Part shown: one piece after another, positions 51,893 to 61,628 of the stretch
Layout: each line of letters starts with the position of its first letter
Position numbering within the stretch: position 1 is the stretch's first letter
NCBI GenBank assembly: GCA_001783715.1
Contig: MFNF01000001.1
Coordinates: 186,001 to 250,000, forward strand
DNA: 64,000 nt
Direction: 5' to 3'
Origin: Candidatus Lambdaproteobacteria bacterium RIFOXYD2_FULL_56_26
Lineage (GTDB): Bacteria; SAR324; XYD2-FULL-50-16
The notes under the pieces: model-generated
Told to the model about the DNA's origin: nothing
Seen by the model: only the letters and a program-made list of their open reading frames with translations
Databases searched by the model: none
Made by a program: the position numbers and the translations under genes

Positions 51893-52228
51893 CTAATGCC
51901 ACTTTTGGCCGTGGCAGGTGTAACAGGACCTTGCGGAATCGCCGGTCAGGTCGGTGCCGTGGCAGCCGGAAAAGTTGCAGTTGCCCACCGGATTCTTGTA
52001 GTCCGTGCCGTGCCAATAACCCCCTTTGAGCTTGGTGTGGTAGGACGTGGGCGGACTGCCGTTGGGGGTCGTGGTGTCTCCGCCACCGTCCCCACCCGAA
52101 TCCCCACCATCGCTGCCCGAATCACCGCCATCGGAGCTGCTGCTGTCGGAATTGTCACCGCCCAGGTCGGATGCTTTGCAGCCCGCCAAGGCCAAGAGGA
52201 TCGCCAAGAGCAAAAACCAGTTGCGCAT
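51893..52228 (-). CDS. Small c-type cytochrome lipoprotein with Gly/Ser/Asp linker
   Basis: 111 residues: lipobox LALAGC at residue 17, a low-complexity linker of Ser, Gly and Asp (about 20-50), then one haem doublet: CNFSGCH (CX4CH spacing) and CYTCHGQKW. The doublet (CHGxxL...SCYxCHGxxW) is the same module found four times in the 8-haem lipoprotein at 56798. It would sit on the outer membrane, tethered by a flexible linker. AGGGCAGAG precedes the ATG. Last gene of the cluster, 71 bases after the regulator. Confidence 0.8.
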   Translation of the reverse strand: MRNWFLLLAILLALAGCKASDLGGDNSDSSSSDGGDSGSDGGDSGGDGGGDTTTPNGSPPTSYHTKLKGGYWHGTDYKNPVGNCNFSGCHGTDLTGDSARSCYTCHGQKWH

Positions 52229-52299: not shown

Positions 52300-52974
52300 T
52301 TATTTGGGGGTGGTCGTGACCATGTAACCCACACCCCTGACGGTGCTGATGTACTCTTTTGGGGTCAATTCTTCCAGTTTTTTGCGAATCGATTTGATGT
52401 GTACATCCACCACGTTGGTGGTGGGGTCGAAGTCATAACCCCAGACGTTCTCCAAAATCTGGGTCCTTGAGACTACACAGTCCTTGGCCCGGACTAGGTA
52501 TTCCAAAATCGCATATTCCTTGGGTCGCAGGACCAGTTCCTTGCCGTCCAAAAACACCCGGTGGGACAGGGTGTTGACCTCCAGGTCGCCGACTTCCAGC
52601 TTGATCATCTCGGTCTGTTTGCGCCGGAGCAGGGCCCTGACCCGAGCCAAGAACTCCTCGAAGGAAAAAGGCTTGGTCAGATAGTCATCGGCCCCCACAT
52701 CCAGCCCCTTGACCTTGTCTTGCACCGAAATCTTGGCGGTCAACATCAGGATCGGGGTTTGGATGCCGGTGTCCCGGAGCCCTTTGGCCACCTCAAAACC
52801 ACTCTTTTTGGGCAACATCAGGTCCAAGATCAGCAGGTCATACTGCCCCGTCAGCCCATGCTCCAGCCCGGCTTGCCCATCGGTGACCAGATCTACGGTG
52901 TACCGCTCCTCTTCCAGCCCCTTTTTGATGAAGTTGGCCACCCCTTGTTCGTCTTCCACCAGGAGGATTCTCAT
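52300..52974 (-). CDS. OmpR-family response regulator of the cytochrome cluster
   Basis: 224 residues: intact receiver (LVEDEQG, phospho-Asp in LILDLMLP, TKPFSFEE) and winged-helix DNA-binding domain (VDVHIKSIRKKLE, VRGVGYMV). Its ATG overlaps the YceI stop (ATGA). The sensor kinase of the cluster (58264) is its natural partner. This class binds direct repeats with 11-base period, exactly what lies before shp and before the barrel gene, so autoregulation is likely. Confidence 0.95.
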   Translation of the reverse strand: MRILLVEDEQGVANFIKKGLEEERYTVDLVTDGQAGLEHGLTGQYDLLILDLMLPKKSGFEVAKGLRDTGIQTPILMLTAKISVQDKVKGLDVGADDYLTKPFSFEEFLARVRALLRRKQTEMIKLEVGDLEVNTLSHRVFLDGKELVLRPKEYAILEYLVRAKDCVVSRTQILENVWGYDFDPTTNVVDVHIKSIRKKLEELTPKEYISTVRGVGYMVTTTPK

Positions 52975-53663
52975 TTTTGCCCGGACGGTAGATTTTTTTT
53001 GATCTCTTCACAACCAAAAAAGCCTTTTTCCATCAACACCGAGATCTTGTCGTCCGTAGCCAGTTTGGCGGCGGTTTCGGCGGAGATTTTGAGGTTGGCG
53101 TTTTCAGTGTAATATTCGCAGAAAAAGACCTTGAACTGCACGTCCAAAATGTCGCCGACCTTCATCAACCCGGCCCGGTAGGGCTTGACGTTGAAATCGG
53201 TTTGTTTGATCGAAAAGGAGCCGGTGACCTTGACGACCGGCGGGAGGTATTCAAATTGGGTGGCAATGGTGATCGGCCGGGTCGCCCCATGCATGGCCAA
53301 CTCCGCCTTGATTTCGGTCGGCTTTTTGGCCGGGGTGAAGTGGTCCAGGTCAATGGAAATGGTTGGATAGACCTTGTCGTTCATGTAGTCCGCCCGTTCC
53401 AGCACTTCCCCTACGCCGGGCAGGTCGAAGTTGAGGTCCACAAACCGAAGTAGCAGCTTGCCGGTGTAAGAACCGTCTTTCTCGACCAACTGCCCCTCGT
53501 GGCGTACTGCTTGGCCCTTGAAGTCAAACAGGTTGGTGGTCCCGGCGACCTTAATAAACCCTTTTTGCAGAATGTAATAGATCTCCTGGTCCGAGTCCTG
53601 TTCGGCCCCAAAGGCCACCAAGCCGCCCAAGGCGAAGAGGGTTCCCAAGATCAATCCTTTCAT
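52971..53663 (-). CDS. YceI-family periplasmic lipid-binding protein
   Basis: 230 residues: signal peptide, then the YceI beta-barrel pattern (GTTNLFDFKGQAV, ADYMNDKVYPTISI, HGATRPITI, SFSIKQTDFNV). The fold binds isoprenoids such as quinones. GGAGG precedes the ATG at 53663, which overlaps the 16-haem cytochrome stop. YceI proteins are frequent beside cytochrome b561 genes, fitting a quinone link here. Two extra cysteines (FFC, FGCEE) occur near the C-terminus. Confidence 0.85.
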   Translation of the reverse strand: MKGLILGTLFALGGLVAFGAEQDSDQEIYYILQKGFIKVAGTTNLFDFKGQAVRHEGQLVEKDGSYTGKLLLRFVDLNFDLPGVGEVLERADYMNDKVYPTISIDLDHFTPAKKPTEIKAELAMHGATRPITIATQFEYLPPVVKVTGSFSIKQTDFNVKPYRAGLMKVGDILDVQFKVFFCEYYTENANLKISAETAAKLATDDKISVLMEKGFFGCEEIKKNLPSGQK

Positions 53664-55111
53664 TTTTCCTCCAAAGGTACAAAGTCGCCAAACCGGTGGG
53701 TTCTCTTGAGCCGCTTTTCCTTCTCTTCTTTGGAAAGGTTGGTTTTTCTGGGGCCGTATTTCTTTTCCCGGTAGTCCCAGAGGTCGCCGAAGTGCTCGTT
53801 GTGACATTCTACACAGGCTTTGCGAACCTTGGAATAACTGATTCCTTTTTCCGTCGTTTTATGACAGGTGGCGCAGTTGAGGGTCCGAAACATCGGGTCC
53901 GGCCCCAAGGGCTGTTTCTCCTGGTTCAGCCACCGGCCTTCCATGACCGTTCTGACTTCATAATGGCAACCTTCGCAGCTGGCCTTTTCTCCCATCTGGT
54001 AGTTCCCCTTGGGGTGACAACCGGCGCACTTGACTTCGCCGTGCAGGGTTTCCAGAGGGAACTTGGTTTTTTTATGGTCAAAACCCTGCTTGAAGTTGCC
54101 CTTGAGGTTGTGGCAATCGATGCAGGTGTCCGCCGCAAATTGGCCCTGGTGTTGGTCTTTGTGGCAATCGGTACAAAGGTTGAAGCCACCGATCCGAAAG
54201 TCCTTGTGCCCCCGGTCCTTGTGGCACTTCTCGCAGTCCACTTGGCCATGCTTGCCGATCAACTTGAAACGGGTCTTGTCATGGTCGAAATTGGTCTTTT
54301 TGGTGTCCAGGAACTTTTTCCAGGACTCCGGCTGGTGGCAGGAGTTACACTCTTTTCCGCTGCGTCCTTGGTGCGGATCGAAGTGGCAGGTGCTGCACTG
54401 GCCGTCGATCTTTTCAAAGGGCGCAAAGTCCTTGTGGGTAGCGTCCTTGTGGTGGCAGGCCTTGCAGTTGAGCTTGGTGTGCTGCCCTCGGAGCTTAAAC
54501 TGGGACTGCTTTTCATGGTCGAATTTGGTCAGGCTCCAACCTCGGTCGAAGTGACAGTCGGTACAAACCTTTTCCTCAAACTGAGGACCGTGGGCCTTGC
54601 CGTGGCAGGAATTACACCCCTCTTCCAGGCCCAAGAAGGTCTGGTTTTTCTTCCTTTCCCCCTTGATCTCCAAGGACCGAATCGTTTGGGACTGGAACTT
54701 TTCTTGGTGGCATTGTTCACACTTGAGCGGCAGGTGGGCTCCGCCCAGGGGCAGCTTGAGCTTGCCGTGGTCCACCTGTCCCAGTTCGAGGATCTTGGTG
54801 TCCCGGCCCTTGTGCTCTCCGTGGCAGGACAAACATTCCTTGTCTTTGTTGAGCCCGTGGAAGCCCAGCTGTTGGTCGATCCGGCTTTTGATTTCCTGGT
54901 GGCAGTCCAGACACAAAAGGTCGCTGACCCCTTTGTTGAGACTGTGGCAGGACATGCAGCCCAAGGTGGTCTCCAGATTGGCGTGGGACTTGGACAGAGG
55001 GCCGGGGCTCAAGGCATCGCCGATCCGCTGGACCACGTTTTTTTCCACCGCCTGGAGGGAGGTTGCCCCCAACAGAGCCAACAAGACCAAACCAAACCGG
55101 AGGGCTGTCAA
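53660..55111 (-). CDS. 16-haem cytochrome c
   Basis: A 483-residue periplasmic protein with a signal peptide (VLLALLGATSLQA) and 16 CxxCH sites (CMSCH to CVECH). The region 190-385 shows three related units with FDHxKTxFxLxGxH, then a CxxCH pair and DxHQG, so it grew by duplication. There is no lipobox and no close catalytic motif; it looks like a haem wire or electron store. The TTG start at 55111 has AGGAGG upstream and overlaps the cytochrome b stop (TTGA). Confidence 0.93.
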   Translation of the reverse strand: MTALRFGLVLLALLGATSLQAVEKNVVQRIGDALSPGPLSKSHANLETTLGCMSCHSLNKGVSDLLCLDCHQEIKSRIDQQLGFHGLNKDKECLSCHGEHKGRDTKILELGQVDHGKLKLPLGGAHLPLKCEQCHQEKFQSQTIRSLEIKGERKKNQTFLGLEEGCNSCHGKAHGPQFEEKVCTDCHFDRGWSLTKFDHEKQSQFKLRGQHTKLNCKACHHKDATHKDFAPFEKIDGQCSTCHFDPHQGRSGKECNSCHQPESWKKFLDTKKTNFDHDKTRFKLIGKHGQVDCEKCHKDRGHKDFRIGGFNLCTDCHKDQHQGQFAADTCIDCHNLKGNFKQGFDHKKTKFPLETLHGEVKCAGCHPKGNYQMGEKASCEGCHYEVRTVMEGRWLNQEKQPLGPDPMFRTLNCATCHKTTEKGISYSKVRKACVECHNEHFGDLWDYREKKYGPRKTNLSKEEKEKRLKRTHRFGDFVPLEEK

Positions 55112-55797
55112 GGGGACTCCTCCTGGTGCGGGTGGTGCTCCGCCTCTGGGTTCAGCTGCAGACTGTGGTGTTCCTCAACGTAAGAGAGGGGCACTACCCC
55201 GTGAATGATGCCCCAAAAGCCCTTGCGGGTGCTGGGGTTGATGGTGGCCATAAAGATGTGGCCGCCCAAGAGCCCCATGGAGCCCAGGGCAATCAAGGTG
55301 TGTCCCCACCGGGGCAGGAGGCCTTGGGGGAACAGCCAAAGCCAGACCCCGGTCGCCTGGAGGCTCAAGGAAATCAACATCATCAGGATGCTGTTGAGCT
55401 TCTGGCCCATGTTGAATTTCCCGGCCGGGACGTGGAGGTGCTTGGGCTGCGCCTTGATCCACTCGATGTCCAGGGGGGTAATGGTCAGGATCAACCGGAG
55501 GTTGTACAGGATGATCTTGGTGTTGCCGATGACGGTAAACAACGGCGGAGCCAGAATCAACAGCACCCCGGTCAACTTGTGAAAGTCTGAGAGCAGGGCA
55601 CTCCGTTGCTGGAGAAACAGCCCCTCAACCGCTAAAACCAGCCCCGAAGCGAGCAGCAGCAAAAAGGGAAGGGCGTGCCCCCAATGGAGCAGGATCTCGG
55701 ACTTGGTGAACCGCAAAAAGGTCTTGCCCGGAACCACCTCCGGCACCCAGTCGGTGAGCCTTTCCTCGATGGTTTGGATGGGTTTTGGCGCTTTCAC
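55108..55797 (-). CDS. Membrane cytochrome b (FdnI/b561-like)
   Basis: 229 residues, four membrane helices with haem-ligand-type histidines (LLHWGHALPF, DFHKLTGVL, WGHTLIAL, GGHIFMA), as in formate dehydrogenase gamma and Ni-Fe hydrogenase b subunits. It would oxidise quinol and pass electrons to the periplasmic haems. The C-terminal tail is histidine-rich (EEHHSLQ, EHHPHQEE). GTG start with GAGG upstream. Confidence 0.85.
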   Translation of the reverse strand: MKAPKPIQTIEERLTDWVPEVVPGKTFLRFTKSEILLHWGHALPFLLLLASGLVLAVEGLFLQQRSALLSDFHKLTGVLLILAPPLFTVIGNTKIILYNLRLILTITPLDIEWIKAQPKHLHVPAGKFNMGQKLNSILMMLISLSLQATGVWLWLFPQGLLPRWGHTLIALGSMGLLGGHIFMATINPSTRKGFWGIIHGVVPLSYVEEHHSLQLNPEAEHHPHQEESP

Positions 55798-55798
55798 C

Positions 55799-56782
55799 TT
55801 AGATCCTCGAAGAGGTCAAAAAGATCACTTGGCCCAGAGAGATTCGGCTGTCCCGCCGGACCAACCGGATCTCTACAAACTCGGCTTGGGCCAGGGATTT
55901 CCTGGAGAACAGGAAGTTCTCCTGGTAGTCTTCCCCAGGTTTGAGAAATTCTTTTTTCTCTGCATGAAAAACCCGGTGCATTTCTTCGATCACCAGACCG
56001 TTGGCCGACTTGAAGGAAACCGTCAGGTCCACCGCTTTAAACCCAAAGATCCCCGAAGGAACCCCATGGGGCAGCCGGTGCCGCAAGGTCAGTTTGACCG
56101 GGATGGTTTCTCCCTGTCGGGGCATCAAGGTGGTGACCGATTCAAACCAAGGTTTCCCCTCTTCGGGCACTTGGGGCAGGGCAGTGAAGCTGTGTTTTTT
56201 CCCGTCCATCGCCCAATGGAAATACTGCATCGGTCCCGAAGTGATCAACTTTCGGTGTACCGCAGGCATGTGACAGTCTTGGCAGGTCGAGAGTTTCTCC
56301 GAACCCAACCTCGCCTTGCTGGCCTTCCATTGTTCGTAGTGGGATTCGTGGCAGGACCCGCAGAGCTTGGGGTCCAGGTAATAGGGGTCACTCATTTTGA
56401 CGAAATGGGCGGGCAACACAAAGTGTGGCCCGCCCATTTCGTTGTCCGGGGTCAGGTGGCAGGTGACGCAGGTCACCCCTTCCTTGGGATGGTTGGCCCG
56501 GACGGTGAGCTTTTCGGCTCCGTAGATTGGGTTGGCCCGGTGGCAAGCCAGACATTTTTCGACCTGGTAGTCGTCGGTTTCCTTTTTGAAGTTCTCCGAC
56601 ACCCAGGCTCGGGCATGGCCCGATTCCTTCCATTCGGCATATTCGAGTTTGTGGCACTCCCCACAAAGCTCGGCACTAGCGGTGTTGGGGGGGGATTCCA
56701 CTACATCCAAATGCAGGAAACATCCCCCCAGATTCAAGGTGACCACCATGACCAAGAAAGCCTTAATGGCCTTGAACCGCAC
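55799..56782 (-). CDS. Pentahaem cytochrome c lipoprotein, c554-like
   Basis: 327 residues. The GTG at 56782 (AAGG eight bases before) gives a compact lipoprotein signal ending LNLGGC; the ORF track start is 5 codons earlier. Five haem sites, CGECH, CLACH, CVTCH, CGSCH and CQDCH, lie in the first half, with the c554/NrfB-like arrangement and spaced histidines. The second half (about 175-327) has no haem and looks like a beta-sandwich. Likely on the periplasmic or outer leaflet side of the outer membrane. Confidence 0.88.
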   Translation of the reverse strand: MRFKAIKAFLVMVVTLNLGGCFLHLDVVESPPNTASAELCGECHKLEYAEWKESGHARAWVSENFKKETDDYQVEKCLACHRANPIYGAEKLTVRANHPKEGVTCVTCHLTPDNEMGGPHFVLPAHFVKMSDPYYLDPKLCGSCHESHYEQWKASKARLGSEKLSTCQDCHMPAVHRKLITSGPMQYFHWAMDGKKHSFTALPQVPEEGKPWFESVTTLMPRQGETIPVKLTLRHRLPHGVPSGIFGFKAVDLTVSFKSANGLVIEEMHRVFHAEKKEFLKPGEDYQENFLFSRKSLAQAEFVEIRLVRRDSRISLGQVIFLTSSRI

Positions 56783-56797
56783 CGTATTAACCTTCAA

Positions 56798-57523
56798 TTA
56801 GGGTTGGTCTCTGGACTTCATGTTGTCATCCCCGCCTAACCACTCGGCCCCATGACACTTGTAACAACTAGGAGCCTCGGTGGTGCCTCTCAGGTCTGCA
56901 CCATGGCAAGAAACACAGTAAGTATTGGGGTTCTTCAAGTCCGGCCCGTGCATTACCCCATCCTTACTTTTGGTGTGGGGGTAGCTGGAATACAACCACT
57001 TGGCCCCGTGGCAAGAGTAGCAACTGGGTGCGGAGCCCGAGCCTTTGAGGTCCGAGCCGTGGCAGTCGGTACAACCCGAACTGGTAGGGCTGCTCAGGCC
57101 CGAGCCATGGTACCTTCCGCCTTTGTTGAGGGTGTGGAGGGATAAGGCGGTCCATTTGTCGCCGTGGCACTGGTAGCAGCTCGGCCGACTGCGTTTGCCG
57201 GTCAGGGCTTTGCCGCCGTGGCATTCTGAACAATTGGCCTCGGCGTTGTAGTAGCCGGACTTGTGCATCACGCCGCTGCGGTTGACCTTGTGGTCGTCTT
57301 TGTTCCACATTACGTTGTGGCAGCTGTAGCAACTGGGGATCCAACCGTTCCCTTGCAGGGCGATGCCGTGGCAAGCGGTGCAGTTTTTGGCACCATGGTA
57401 GAGCTTTTTGCCGTGTTCGGCATCATCAAGGATGATGTTGTGGGAGGTGATCCCTTCCTTACAGCTGGAAAGAACCGTCCCCAGCGCCAGAAGCGCCAAC
57501 AGGATTAAAACAGTACGCCGCAT
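56798..57523 (-). CDS. Octahaem cytochrome c lipoprotein with four haem-doublet repeats
   Basis: 241 residues: lipobox VLSSC at residue 21, then eight CxxCH in four doublets: CTACH/CYSCH, CSECH/CYQCH, CTDCH/CYSCH and CVSCH/CYKCH. Each doublet follows the rule CHGxxL-x-G...SCYxCHGxxW, about 45-50 residues apart. It lacks any other domain, so it is probably an electron wire at the outer membrane. GGAGGGAG precedes the ATG, which overlaps the end of the barrel gene by 19 bases. Confidence 0.9.
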   Translation of the reverse strand: MRRTVLILLALLALGTVLSSCKEGITSHNIILDDAEHGKKLYHGAKNCTACHGIALQGNGWIPSCYSCHNVMWNKDDHKVNRSGVMHKSGYYNAEANCSECHGGKALTGKRSRPSCYQCHGDKWTALSLHTLNKGGRYHGSGLSSPTSSGCTDCHGSDLKGSGSAPSCYSCHGAKWLYSSYPHTKSKDGVMHGPDLKNPNTYCVSCHGADLRGTTEAPSCYKCHGAEWLGGDDNMKSRDQP

Positions 57524-58086
57524 AACAGGCTCCCTCCAATCAAACCGCCAAAGGAACTGCCGATCCCGTCACAGGTAATGAAGGACCAGGATTTGCTGAC
57601 CTTAAGCATCAAAACACCATAGTGGATGTCATTGGCCGAGAAAAAGGGGCTGGGGTCGCCCAGCTGGTTGCCGCCCGAAATGCTAAGGCCCTCGGTCGTG
57701 GTGGCCACGCCGTAGCCGACCCCAGGGCCGATCCGCAGGCCTGCGATGTCAACGGTGGCAAAATAATCCAACTCGTAGGCCACCAGAGTCACGCCCACCG
57801 TTCCGGTCACCCCGTCTCGGGTCAACTGACCGGTGCCCGAGAGGTTGTAGTAGGTCAAGGCGGTTTCAGACTTGAAGGCAGGCAGGAAGAACAGGCTGGT
57901 GTCATCGCTTTGGTAGCTCAAGGCAGCACTGGCTCCGGCCAAAGGTAGAATTTGAGTGGTAATCCCGGCACCAGCCAAGAGTTTTATGTCACCGGCAAAA
58001 CTCAAGGAGGAAGAGGCCAAAAACACCAAAGCCGACAATCCGATGAACCAAAGACGTTTCCAAAAGTACAGAGAAGTTGGGATCAT
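57505..58086 (-). CDS. Exported, probable small outer-membrane beta-barrel protein
   Basis: 193 residues: signal peptide (ALVFLASSSLSFAG), then alternating amphipathic strands rich in Gly, Ser, Tyr and aromatic residues (VGVTLVAYELDYFATVDIAG, GPGVGYGVATTTEG) and a C-terminal phenylalanine, all usual for outer-membrane barrels. About 160 residues allow 8-10 strands, too few to enclose a multihaem cytochrome as the large porin-cytochrome conduits do. First gene after the second regulatory element. Confidence 0.65.
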   Translation of the reverse strand: MIPTSLYFWKRLWFIGLSALVFLASSSLSFAGDIKLLAGAGITTQILPLAGASAALSYQSDDTSLFFLPAFKSETALTYYNLSGTGQLTRDGVTGTVGVTLVAYELDYFATVDIAGLRIGPGVGYGVATTTEGLSISGGNQLGDPSPFFSANDIHYGVLMLKVSKSWSFITCDGIGSSFGGLIGGSLLCGVLF

Positions 58087-58176: not shown

Positions 58177-58230
58177 ACTCTAACGAAGTAAGATGAAGTT
58201 TAGATGAACCGAAGATGAAAAGAATTTCAT
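58177..58230 (-). promoter_or_regulatory. Predicted OmpR/PhoB-type regulator site plus -10, before the barrel gene
   Basis: GATGAA at 58192, 58203 and 58214 (period 11) and an inverted TTTCAT at 58225-58230. Read towards the barrel gene, three TTCATC boxes are followed nine bases later by TAGAGT (58177-58182), as the -10 follows a pho box. Same length and spacing as the element at 60581-60634. Predicted start of transcription near 58170, about 84 bases before the barrel ATG. Confidence 0.75.
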
Positions 58231-58263
58231 TCTCGCCCCTGTAGATTGAGCTTTTTGACGGTT

Positions 58264-59520
58264 CTAAAGGGAAACCAGCTGGAGGCTTTTTCCCTTGGTC
58301 GGCAGGCTGACTTCCACCCGGAATTGCCCGGATTCCTCCAGTTGGATCCGAAGTTTGCCGCCATGGGAAAGAACAATGTAGTTGGTGATGTTCAGCCCCA
58401 GCCCCTTGCCTGCACTTTGGAAGGATTCGGCGTTGCGGCCCCGGTAAAAGGGGGTGAGCAGTTTTTTGGGGTCCTCGCCCTTAAGATAGCGGCTGTGGTT
58501 GACCACCACCAGTTTGGCCTGTCCACCGTTGTTTTCCGCTTCCAGGCGAATCTCGCTGCTTTCCACCGAATATTTGACCGCATTGTCCAAGAGGTTCACA
58601 AAGGCCCGGCCAAACAGGTGGGGGTCACAAAAGAGGGTAAACCCCGGTTCCCACCGGTGGACAACGGTCAGGGACTTGGCTTCCAACCTGCCGTTGATGT
58701 CTTTGAGACTGTCGGCCAAAAGCCGGTCGAGATCCAGGGTTTCCTTGACCAGCGAGAGGGATTTAAAATTCGAGCTGGCCAAAAGGTACAGGTCTTGGAG
58801 CAGGCTGATGATCCGGTTGGCCTCTTGGAGCCCCAGGGCGATAAACTCTCGGTATTCCTCTGGGCTGCGAGGTTTACGCAGGGAGACCTCCAGGTTGCCC
58901 TTGAGGGAGGTCAGCGGGGAGTGCAGTTCGTGGGTGACGTTGCTGCTGAAGTTTTCCTGGAAACGGAAAGCTTCGGTGATCGGCCGCATGGCCAAGGAAA
59001 CCAGGATGCGACTCAAGAGGTAAGAAAGTACCAGGACACCGGGACTGGAGAGCCAGAGCAGCTTGAGAAAGTTTTGTTCGTACTTGCTCAGCTGAGTGAT
59101 CGGCTCGGAGATCCGTACCACTGCCTTGTCGTTGGGCCGAAAGTAAAGCACCAGAAACTGGCTCTGGTTGTATTCGACCAAGTCAAAGACATATTGGCGG
59201 TTTTTGCTTTCCTCAAAGGCATCGGGATTGAGGGGGGCCTGGAAGATCTCGGCGTTGTTGGTCTGGCCGGTCAAGTGGCCCGAGAGGTCGTAGATCTGGA
59301 AGACCTCGTCTTCGTCCAGCTTGCTGAAATTGCCATGGTCGCCATTGTTGTAATAACGTTCCATGTATTCTTTGTGACCGTCCTTGACTAAGTCTTCCCG
59401 GAGTCCCTCCAAGAGGGACTCGTGCAGGTAGAGGTAGCTGGTCCCCAAAATCAGGGCACAAAAAAGCGTAATCCCCAAGGCAAACAGCAGGGTCAGCCGA
59501 TTTTTGGTCGCTTGGATCAT
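58264..59520 (-). CDS. Sensor histidine kinase of the cytochrome cluster
   Basis: 418 residues: membrane helix 1 (LFALGITLFCALILG), a periplasmic sensor of about 125 residues, helix 2 (LLWLSSPGVLVLSYLL), HisKA with phospho-acceptor in NVTHELHSPL, HATPase with NLLDNAVKYS and GKGLGLNI. It starts 3 bases after dhc. The regulator of the cluster lies 5.3 kb further on, so kinase and regulator bracket the cytochrome genes. The periplasmic sensor has no haem motif. Confidence 0.93.
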   Translation of the reverse strand: MIQATKNRLTLLFALGITLFCALILGTSYLYLHESLLEGLREDLVKDGHKEYMERYYNNGDHGNFSKLDEDEVFQIYDLSGHLTGQTNNAEIFQAPLNPDAFEESKNRQYVFDLVEYNQSQFLVLYFRPNDKAVVRISEPITQLSKYEQNFLKLLWLSSPGVLVLSYLLSRILVSLAMRPITEAFRFQENFSSNVTHELHSPLTSLKGNLEVSLRKPRSPEEYREFIALGLQEANRIISLLQDLYLLASSNFKSLSLVKETLDLDRLLADSLKDINGRLEAKSLTVVHRWEPGFTLFCDPHLFGRAFVNLLDNAVKYSVESSEIRLEAENNGGQAKLVVVNHSRYLKGEDPKKLLTPFYRGRNAESFQSAGKGLGLNITNYIVLSHGGKLRIQLEESGQFRVEVSLPTKGKSLQLVSL

Positions 59521-59523
59521 CGA

Positions 59524-60033
59524 CTACTTGGGGATCTTGACGTATTCTTCTTCAAAATTCCCTTTGGCCGCATCCGGGTGGCAAGCAGCGCAGTTGGCCC
59601 AGCTTTTGATGGCCGGACGGGCCAGGGTGGCGGGGGAAATCTCATGGTGCTCCCGTTTGAAATAAGGGATGTCGGAGATTCTCAAGTAGGTTTTGTCCCC
59701 GGTGGACTGGAGCAATTTGATGGCCCGTTTGCTGTTGGAGGTTTCCCCGGCGTTGTTGAGCAAATAAGCCTTCACCGCTTCCAGACCCGGTCCTTCGAGG
59801 CTGGCATCGTCCCCAAAGTGGTCGTGTAGGTTGGACAACATTTTTTCCCAACTTCGCTTGGGCAACAGTTCGGCCTGGTAGGCAAAGTGGCAGGAACCAC
59901 ATTCTTCCAGGTATTGGGCATCGGTTACCGGTTTCAAAAAGCCCTTTTGCCCCACACTGCCGTCGGCCAATGCAGAAGTGCCGGTCAAACCAAAAGCAGC
60001 CAAAACCATCAAAGACAACGCCCGATTCAACAT
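59524..60033 (-). CDS. Dihaem cytochrome c (DHC family)
   Basis: 169 residues: signal peptide, haem 1 ECGSCHFAYQAELLP and haem 2 NCAACHPDA near the C-terminus, with RISDIPYFKREHHE between them, all as in the DHC family (PF09626). In Rhodobacter and Shewanella DHC donates electrons to SHP and is encoded next to it, as here. AGGAG precedes the ATG. Confidence 0.9.
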   Translation of the reverse strand: MLNRALSLMVLAAFGLTGTSALADGSVGQKGFLKPVTDAQYLEECGSCHFAYQAELLPKRSWEKMLSNLHDHFGDDASLEGPGLEAVKAYLLNNAGETSNSKRAIKLLQSTGDKTYLRISDIPYFKREHHEISPATLARPAIKSWANCAACHPDAAKGNFEEEYVKIPK

Positions 60034-60078
60034 AACTCTCCTGTGTGGGTAGGGTGGGGCAAAAAGGTGAAATTCCGG

Positions 60079-60519
60079 TCAAAGGGAATAAATAAACTCA
60101 ATAAAATCACCCTTTTCAAGACTCGTACATTCCCGCTCCAAGGTCCACTTGCAATTGCGGCGGAACCATTTTTCCACCTTGGCAGCCTTGGTAAAGCGGT
60201 CCCGCTGGACCTTGGGAGAAAGGGGGTCGATCTTTTTCCCGGTCACGGCGTGCTTGGAAGGCAACATCGGGTCAGACTTATGGCAGGTGGCGCAGGAACG
60301 TTTGTCCCCCTCGGCACTGTCGGTGTGCTCGAAAAAGTAGAAGGTTTTACCCCGTTCAGCCGAAAATTCCGTAAAGGCCGGGTCCTTGGCCTTGGATTCT
60401 TTGGCAAGTTCGGCCAAAACCCCTTGGATCTCGGGGTTTTTGGGGGTAAAGGCAAGAGCGGTCTGGAGGGAAACAAAACATACGATGAAACTCGCCATCA
60501 GGGCGAAACTTTTGGACAT
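60079..60519 (-). CDS. SHP (sphaeroides haem protein)-like monohaem cytochrome, DUF1924
   Basis: 146 residues from the ATG at 60519: signal peptide (LMASFIVCFVSLQTALA), one haem site SCATCH followed by KSDPMLPSKHA, and the family end WFRRNC...ERECTSLEKGDFI. SHP proteins are high-spin cytochromes able to bind oxygen or other small ligands and are reduced by DHC. First gene of the cluster; a GGGAAG site precedes it. Confidence 0.88.
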   Translation of the reverse strand: MSKSFALMASFIVCFVSLQTALAFTPKNPEIQGVLAELAKESKAKDPAFTEFSAERGKTFYFFEHTDSAEGDKRSCATCHKSDPMLPSKHAVTGKKIDPLSPKVQRDRFTKAAKVEKWFRRNCKWTLERECTSLEKGDFIEFIYSL

Positions 60520-60580
60520 AATCTTCCCTATTCGTTGGGTCAGGCGGAGGCACCAGGTAGAGCCGCTCGAAGACCCGGTT

Positions 60581-60634
60581 AAGCTATCCTCTGAATATGA
60601 ACAGAACATGAAAGGAGGATGAAATAAATTTCAT
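60581..60634 (-). promoter_or_regulatory. Predicted OmpR/PhoB-type regulator site plus -10, before shp
   Basis: ATGAA at 60597, 60608 and 60619 (period 11) and TTTCAT at 60629-60634, 10 bases after the last ATGAA start, as in the other copy. Towards shp the last TTCAT is followed by TAGCTT (60581-60586) at the same distance as TAGAGT in the element at 58177. Predicted transcription start near 60574, 55 bases before the shp ATG. Confidence 0.75.
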
Positions 60635-60677: not shown

Positions 60678-61427
60678 TTATCCCTTGAGTTCTCCGATCA
60701 ACTTTCGGAATTCATCCAAAGTAGTTTGGTAGGATTCTTCCAGCAAGGCGATCCAGGAGGAAAGTGCGGTCTTTTGGTGGTTCTGGGCTTGTCGTTCGAT
60801 TTGGCCGATAATTTCGCTCATCCTTTTGGCTCCGACATTACCGGTCATGCCTTTAAACTTGTGGGTCAAGGCGACCAGGGCGGGGAAATTTTGGCTCAAT
60901 GCCGAGGATTTGAGGCTCTCAAGCATCGGCGGAGCGTCCAGGAAAAAAATCTCGATCAGGTGGGTGACCAAATCCGGGTCGATCTGCCGCCGAGATTCCA
61001 GCAGGACTAGGTCCAGCTCGGTTGTGGGGTGTTCGTTGAACAGACGTTTGGGGGCCTTTTGTTCCTCGATCAGCAACGAAGCCCGGCGCAGGCAGTTTTG
61101 GAAGAGTTCGATGTCCAGAGGTTTGCTCAGATACTCGAACCAACCCCCCGTTTCCAGGCCGACCAAGTTTTTTTGCTGGCCGGTGGCTACCCAAAGGGCG
61201 TTTTGGGCGATTTGGAACTTAAGGTCCGGCTGCTGCACAAAGCCCGGTTCGATTCCCGGCAGCTGGAGAGAGAGCAGGATCAGGTCAAAATGACCCTCGG
61301 TCAGGCAGCGGTTCACCCCAGGCCGGTCCTCAGCCCAGCAGGCCTGATAGCCGGAGAACCGCAAGAACCGCTCCAACACCAGTTTGTCGATGTGGCTGTC
61401 TTCACCTACAAGAATCTTTAGACCCAT
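60678..61427 (-). CDS. Receiver-Hpt phosphotransfer protein with altered receiver
   Basis: 249 residues: receiver-like domain (1-120) with VGEDSH and the SKPLD lysine, but the phospho-Asp position is Ser (LILLSLQLPG). A C-terminal Hpt domain follows (about 140-245) with ALTHKFKGMTGNVGA, the phospho-histidine motif. It could relay phosphate from a hybrid kinase such as the one at 37923, or act as a dead-receiver adaptor. ATG at 61427; no clear ribosome site. Confidence 0.82.
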   Translation of the reverse strand: MGLKILVGEDSHIDKLVLERFLRFSGYQACWAEDRPGVNRCLTEGHFDLILLSLQLPGIEPGFVQQPDLKFQIAQNALWVATGQQKNLVGLETGGWFEYLSKPLDIELFQNCLRRASLLIEEQKAPKRLFNEHPTTELDLVLLESRRQIDPDLVTHLIEIFFLDAPPMLESLKSSALSQNFPALVALTHKFKGMTGNVGAKRMSEIIGQIERQAQNHQKTALSSWIALLEESYQTTLDEFRKLIGELKG

Positions 61428-61628
61428 CACTGCACAATCCCGGTTGGTTGAAACTCTGCCTTCATTCTAGGGCCTCGACCGGGGGGCTGTCGAGAAAAAA
61501 GCTGGTTTTACTAGGGGCCAAGGGTAGTCAAATTTACGGTTCCAAAGGAGAGGCCCAAGGCCAATCGGCCCTTGGCGGCCCAAGCTGCCAGAAAGATCAG
61601 GCCGTCAACCTACCCGGGAGGTGGGTCC

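Follow-up and report, generated by a model that had tools for sequence, protein, structure and literature searches.

The sphaeroides haem protein (SHP) binds oxygen, and we know of no function that has been established for it. The part of Meyer 2010 drawn on here describes SHP operons with two-component pairs that are predicted to regulate SHP (PMC2909971). Among the regulators that offer a comparison, PhoB binds direct repeats spaced at 11 bp, with the Pho box replacing the -35 hexamer in class II activation (PMC3413638). Sites for ArcA consist of three to five direct repeats with a centre-to-centre distance of 11 bp (PMC3798270). CusR recognizes the palindrome ATGACAAnnTTGTCAT, which spans 16 bp, and has a very small regulon (PMC11195947). 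At SARP (AfsR) promoters of Streptomyces, OmpR-type domains occupy 11-bp repeats whose distance to the -10 is fixed at 8 bp (PMC10936776).

The window analysed here, a 64,000-nucleotide stretch of the genome of Candidatus Lambdaproteobacteria bacterium RIFOXYD2_FULL_56_26, contains an SHP cluster (Table 1). SHP, a dihaem cytochrome c and a cytochrome b are all encoded in it, as judged by matches to PF09086, PF09626 and PF01292. In grouping these genes with a two-component pair it resembles the SHP operons in the part of Meyer 2010 on which we draw, and it differs from them in that it also holds a barrel gene and genes for several multihaem cytochromes (PMC2909971). The listed start of the YceI-like gene is probably upstream of the real one. 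The original prediction that the cluster encodes a PhoB/OmpR-type regulator and a kinase is borne out by Pfam domains, and the regulator combines a receiver (PF00072, 3.2e-27) with a Trans_reg_C winged helix (PF00486, 1.1e-27), the domain composition of the OmpR/PhoB type. By NCBIfam score, models of the CusR/CusS type are nearest for both proteins, which nevertheless fall below the family cut-offs: the regulator scores 242.6 against the CusR/CopR/CzcR model TIGR01387 (cut-off 279.2) and the kinase 154 against TIGR01386 (cut-off 292.55). The regulator likewise lies below the PhoB model TIGR02154 (205.9; equivalog cut-off 296.2) and QseB (171.2; cut-off 345). QseC is absent from the 25 best NCBIfam models of the kinase, and the literal SK1 motifs SGVYWQ and RSRSLWD were not seen in an alignment of four kinases read by eye. 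The kinase thus differs from the sensors in the part of Meyer 2010 used here, having neither the literal SK1 motifs nor an NCBIfam assignment to QseC (SK2) (PMC2909971).

Two copies of a 54-base element, A and B, occur in front of the barrel gene and shp, with the coordinates and length originally predicted. On the minus strand, which is the coding strand of the cluster genes, both read ATGAA-N6-TTCAT-N6-TTCAT-N6-TTCAT-N10-TAGNNT (58230 to 58177; 60634 to 60581), with all features in register; on the plus strand they appear as ATGAA boxes followed by a terminal TTTCAT. The exact 11-bp period of the three boxes and the equal distance of the -10-like hexamers, TAGAGT and TAGCTT, hold in both copies. 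One detail required correction: the gap to the -10, predicted to be 9 bases, is 10 bases between the last TTCAT and the hexamer.

Table 1. Positions of the elements, the cluster genes and the sites in related genomes (window coordinates unless a locus is named).
Feature	Position	Strand	Remark
Element A	58177..58230	minus	in front of barrel gene
Element A box 0, ATGAA, inverted	58226-58230	minus	
Element A boxes 1, 2, 3, TTCAT	58215-58219, 58204-58208, 58193-58197	minus	
Element A -10-like hexamer TAGAGT	58177-58182	minus	
Element B	60581..60634	minus	in front of shp
Element B box 0, ATGAA, inverted	60630-60634	minus	
Element B boxes 1, 2, 3, TTCAT	60619-60623, 60608-60612, 60597-60601	minus	
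Element B -10-like hexamer TAGCTT	60581-60586	minus	
shp, sphaeroides haem protein	60079..60519	minus	DUF1924, PF09086, E 2.9e-35
Dihaem cytochrome c	59524..60033	minus	DHC, PF09626, E 7.6e-39
Sensor histidine kinase	58264..59520	minus	HisKA, HATPase_c
Putative outer-membrane-barrel-like protein	57505..58086	minus	no Pfam match; conserved in four genomes
Multihaem cytochrome c lipoprotein-like	56798..57523	minus	
Multihaem cytochrome c	55799..56797	minus	Cytochrome_C554 / NNT-like
Cytochrome b561-type membrane protein	55108..55797	minus	PF01292
Multihaem cytochrome c, c7/c3 type	53660..55111	minus	
YceI-like protein	52971..53807	minus	
OmpR/PhoB-type response regulator	52300..52974	minus	proposed binder of both elements
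Small c-type cytochrome lipoprotein	51893..52228	minus	
G003 sites	L016 9545; L016 11855		before shp; before barrel gene
G001 sites	L017 7479; L017 11430		before cytochrome b-shp genes; before barrel gene
G005 site	L018 2486-2433		before shp
Off-cluster site	G003, L083		before two-haem lipoprotein gene
Off-cluster site	G001, L085		before Haem_bd protein gene
Off-cluster site	G001, L086		before three-gene multihaem operon
Off-cluster site	G005, L087		before multihaem protein gene
Off-cluster tandem pair, 94 bp apart	G001, L084 4880-5130		before 31-aa membrane-type ORF (MTDILLKVYVNFLFSMMGYLVMVAVVVFVAG)
CTTCAYATTT-type arrays	L089 4886, L090 4745, L091 1368, L093 4506, L094 4808, L095 3526 and 5240, L097 2856		

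Elements A and B are identical at 38 of 76 aligned bases, boxes counted in, with little likeness outside the boxes. Given that the likeness is confined to the boxes, the two copies have a set of boxes in common and are not a recent duplication, an origin that we reject because the spacers differ. Pattern searches of the whole 3,076,372-bp genome did not reveal many random copies unrelated to promoters: the exact TTCAT triple at 11 bp occurs only at elements A and B, the full pattern with 3 mismatches allowed still finds only these two, and a relaxed pattern of two boxes plus the -10 has no match elsewhere in the genome. The exact triple was absent from five order-3 Markov genomes of equal size trained on the window, and with 2 mismatches allowed the window holds 2 copies against a mean of 0.10 in its dinucleotide shuffles. 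A functionless repeat, arisen by chance or by recent duplication, is therefore extremely improbable, given the unshared inter-box sequence, the uniqueness of the triple in the genome, its absence from the Markov genomes, the low count in the shuffles, and the retention of the element in four genera, which refutes this reading. A matrix built solely from 11 sites of the relatives and scanned over the window ranks its two elements first and second, at 57.7 and 46.7 bits, with the next position at 10.2. Outside the window, the same genome also carries an 11-bp tandem repeat, TTCATCCCCGATTCATCCCCGATTCGA, in identical form on two contigs (G000 C9:943-969; C11:7872-7898).

Across 13 sites in this genome and its relatives, the distance from box 3 to the -10-like hexamer is a constant 10 bp; the hexamer reads TANNNT except at the shp site of G003, where it is CAGTCT. 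A -35-like hexamer 16-18 bp from the -10 is present in none of the 13, and a sigma70 scan detected no full -35/-10 promoter at either element. These 13 sites have the layout of PhoB-like class II promoters, in which a direct-repeat box replaces the -35 at a fixed distance from the -10. At the phoA promoter the distance from box to -10 is 10 bp, equal to that of the elements described here. If the transcription start is set 7 bp past the hexamer, boxes 3, 2, 1 and 0 would begin near -27, -38, -49 and -60, respectively. The likeness to PhoB thus comprises an OmpR/PhoB-type regulator, 11-bp direct repeats and a box in the -35 place, whereas the half-site here is TTTCAT, with three direct boxes and one inverted box, and the regulator does not reach the equivalog cut-off for PhoB. 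The position and orientation of ArcA sites are variable, whereas the -10 distance is fixed here and box 0 is inverted; moreover, ArcA is a global regulator, whereas the regulon here is local. SARP (AfsR) promoters share with these elements an OmpR-type DNA-binding domain, 11-bp repeats and a fixed -10 distance, but they belong to another protein family, which lacks a receiver domain, and have a different spacing.

Judging from sequence comparison, we consider it likely that the elements serve the two-component system of the cluster itself as operator-promoters, with PhoB-like class II activation at promoters that lack a -35. Some signal would lead the kinase to phosphorylate the regulator, which would then bind TTTCAT half-sites aligned along a single helix face: three in head-to-tail order with an 11-bp period, and a fourth upstream of them in inverted orientation. 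Boxes 2 and 3 would sit where a PhoB-type activator stands in for the -35; with the boxes in this place and a -10 without a -35, the bound regulator would recruit sigma70 RNA polymerase. We infer binding by the regulator, activation with its positive sign, and the transcription starts from this arrangement. Sequence does not reveal whether regulation is positive or negative, and ArcA, which has similar 11-bp arrays, mostly represses (PMC3798270). The regulator might accordingly bind and either repress or mainly set a basal level, with the -10-like hexamer not used as proposed. We regard this as improbable, since the constant 10 bp between box 3 and TANNNT in 13 sites, together with the lack of a -35, is what an activator-requiring promoter would show, and a repressor does not need a fixed distance.

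The inverted box, part of the original prediction, is a real and retained part of the element: 9 of the 13 sites have it in perfect form, 2 have it with a single mismatch, and 2 off-cluster sites lack it. Together with box 1 it forms the palindrome ATGAAA-N4-TTTCAT, with a span of 16 bp. A PhoB-type site does not require such an inverted box, which is a counterpoint to the operator model. The conservation of the palindrome and its inversion relative to the other boxes would also suit a second, dimeric factor with the palindrome as its site, leaving only the direct repeats to the response regulator. This is unlikely, though somewhat less so than repression, because box 0 stays in the 11-bp register of the other boxes, box 1 belongs to the palindrome as well as to the direct array, and the half-site is again TTTCAT; in addition, regulators of the CusR type, to which the NCBIfam score comes closest, bind a palindrome of equal 16-bp span (PMC11195947). 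The system is like CusR/CopR in the family placement of both proteins, in the 16-bp span shared by ATGACAAnnTTGTCAT and ATGAAA-N4-TTTCAT and in a very small regulon. It differs in that both proteins are below the family cut-offs, the operator has extra downstream direct repeats and the cluster has no metal-resistance genes.

With at most 2 mismatches allowed, the 54-bp pattern gave 11 matches in 52 genomes of the phylum, all of them in G000, G001, G003 and G005, which belong to one family and four different genera; a reversed-pattern control on the same 52 genomes gave 0 matches. An ortholog of the regulator (69-76% identity) is found in the same four genomes only, and the next best elsewhere is at most 50% identical. 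Element and regulator ortholog are thus both present in 4 of the 52 genomes and both missing from the other 48, including the six remaining members of the family. By counting, the chance that both would fall on one and the same set of 4 genomes among 52 is 1 in 270,725, a guide rather than a P value since genomes and genes are not independent, owing to descent and linkage. Because the regulator travels with the entire cluster, co-occurrence alone does not separate it from the other cluster genes. The recognition-helix stretch VDVHIKSIRKK is identical in the four orthologs, and the conserved blocks in an alignment of the regions upstream of the barrel gene in G000, G003 and G001 are the boxes and GTTAG. 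The placement of the copies in front of shp and the barrel gene also recurs at the orthologous promoters of the relatives. No element was found upstream of SHP in other families or phyla (L011-L015, L019-L022), and other genomes showed no convincing copy close to regulators whose identity is at most 50%. An SHP search of genome contigs returned distant relatives only. Taken together, regulator co-occurrence, the orthologous promoters and the missing -35 support, on comparative grounds, the prediction that the regulator of the cluster acts by class II activation of the PhoB/OmpR type.

Sites away from the cluster were located by a pattern search that was blind to genes. Three relatives have five off-cluster promoters between them, four of which stand before genes for c-type cytochromes; the exception is the promoter of the 31-aa ORF. 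Among 104 ORFs, drawn from the off-cluster stretches together with the window's first 47 kb, only 7 encode CXXCH, and 6 of these 7 are in operons downstream of sites. Downstream of the 31-aa ORF in L084 lies a terminator-like stem.

A second type of 11-bp array, built of CTTCAYATTT repeats, also has a 10-bp gap to TANNNT and occurs in genomes without the regulator ortholog, where it precedes a TolC-like gene, ABC/FtsX transporter genes and secreted-protein genes. These arrays are probably the site of a different OmpR-type regulator. They bear on whether elements A and B might be bound by a regulator encoded elsewhere, for example another OmpR-type protein, with the linked one having other targets: related 11-bp TTCAT arrays do exist in genomes without the ortholog, and a first look at the genome lists 110 candidates for other response regulators. 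We nonetheless consider this very unlikely, since the linked regulator, the one that was compared, shows a sharp ortholog gap (69-76% in four element-bearing genomes versus at most 50%), and the second array type has different spacers and matrix scores of about 10-34 versus 47-58 for the window elements.

Returning to regulation by the linked pair, element B would drive shp, the dihaem cytochrome gene and the kinase gene, and element A would drive the barrel, cytochrome, YceI-like and regulator genes, with the small cytochrome lipoprotein gene probably the final gene of this second transcript. The predicted division into two coordinated transcripts is upheld in three genomes and fails in G005, which has the shp element only: about 60 bp separate the kinase stop from the barrel start there, with no element between them (L128 12200-12536; L018 1-180). 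One of the two promoters has been lost naturally in G005, where the cluster is probably a single transcript from the shp element. No terminators were found directly before elements A and B, so read-through from upstream genes is possible. The kinase gene would be the last of the first transcript, and the regulator gene would lie close to the end of the second; given separate transcripts, a complete system would require both, and positive feedback would be expected. Most likely, the pair of elements lets one dedicated sensor-regulator pair switch on both halves of the cluster together. Upstream of element B, a gene at 60678-61430 encodes a receiver and an Hpt domain and is nearest to the C-terminus of ArcB; its receiver has LLSLQLP at the expected phospho-acceptor Asp, and the G003 counterpart has ILDPTLP. 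Its product may be a phosphorelay part tied to the cluster.

Measured against the part of Meyer 2010 drawn on here, SHP operons with two-component pairs are known, no operator is given there, and what is new is the predicted operator, its unlinked targets and a kinase with neither the literal SK1 motifs nor a QseC assignment (PMC2909971). The regulator probably represents a new subfamily within a well-known kind. More tentatively, and with somewhat less than even confidence, we propose an OmpR/PhoB subfamily dedicated to SHP/multihaem cytochrome clusters. Its composite operator would join a CusR-like inverted pair to a PhoB-like direct array through one common half-site, so that four winged-helix domains would bind in a mixture of head-to-head and head-to-tail order, and its kinase would be a fourth type of SHP-operon sensor. 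Such a composite of inverted and direct boxes would test which arrangements OmpR/PhoB proteins can adopt on DNA. The precise predicted operator offers a way to learn when the cluster is expressed, and its presence in the relatives ties the cluster to unlinked cytochrome genes, which amounts to a list of likely partners in the same electron pathway.
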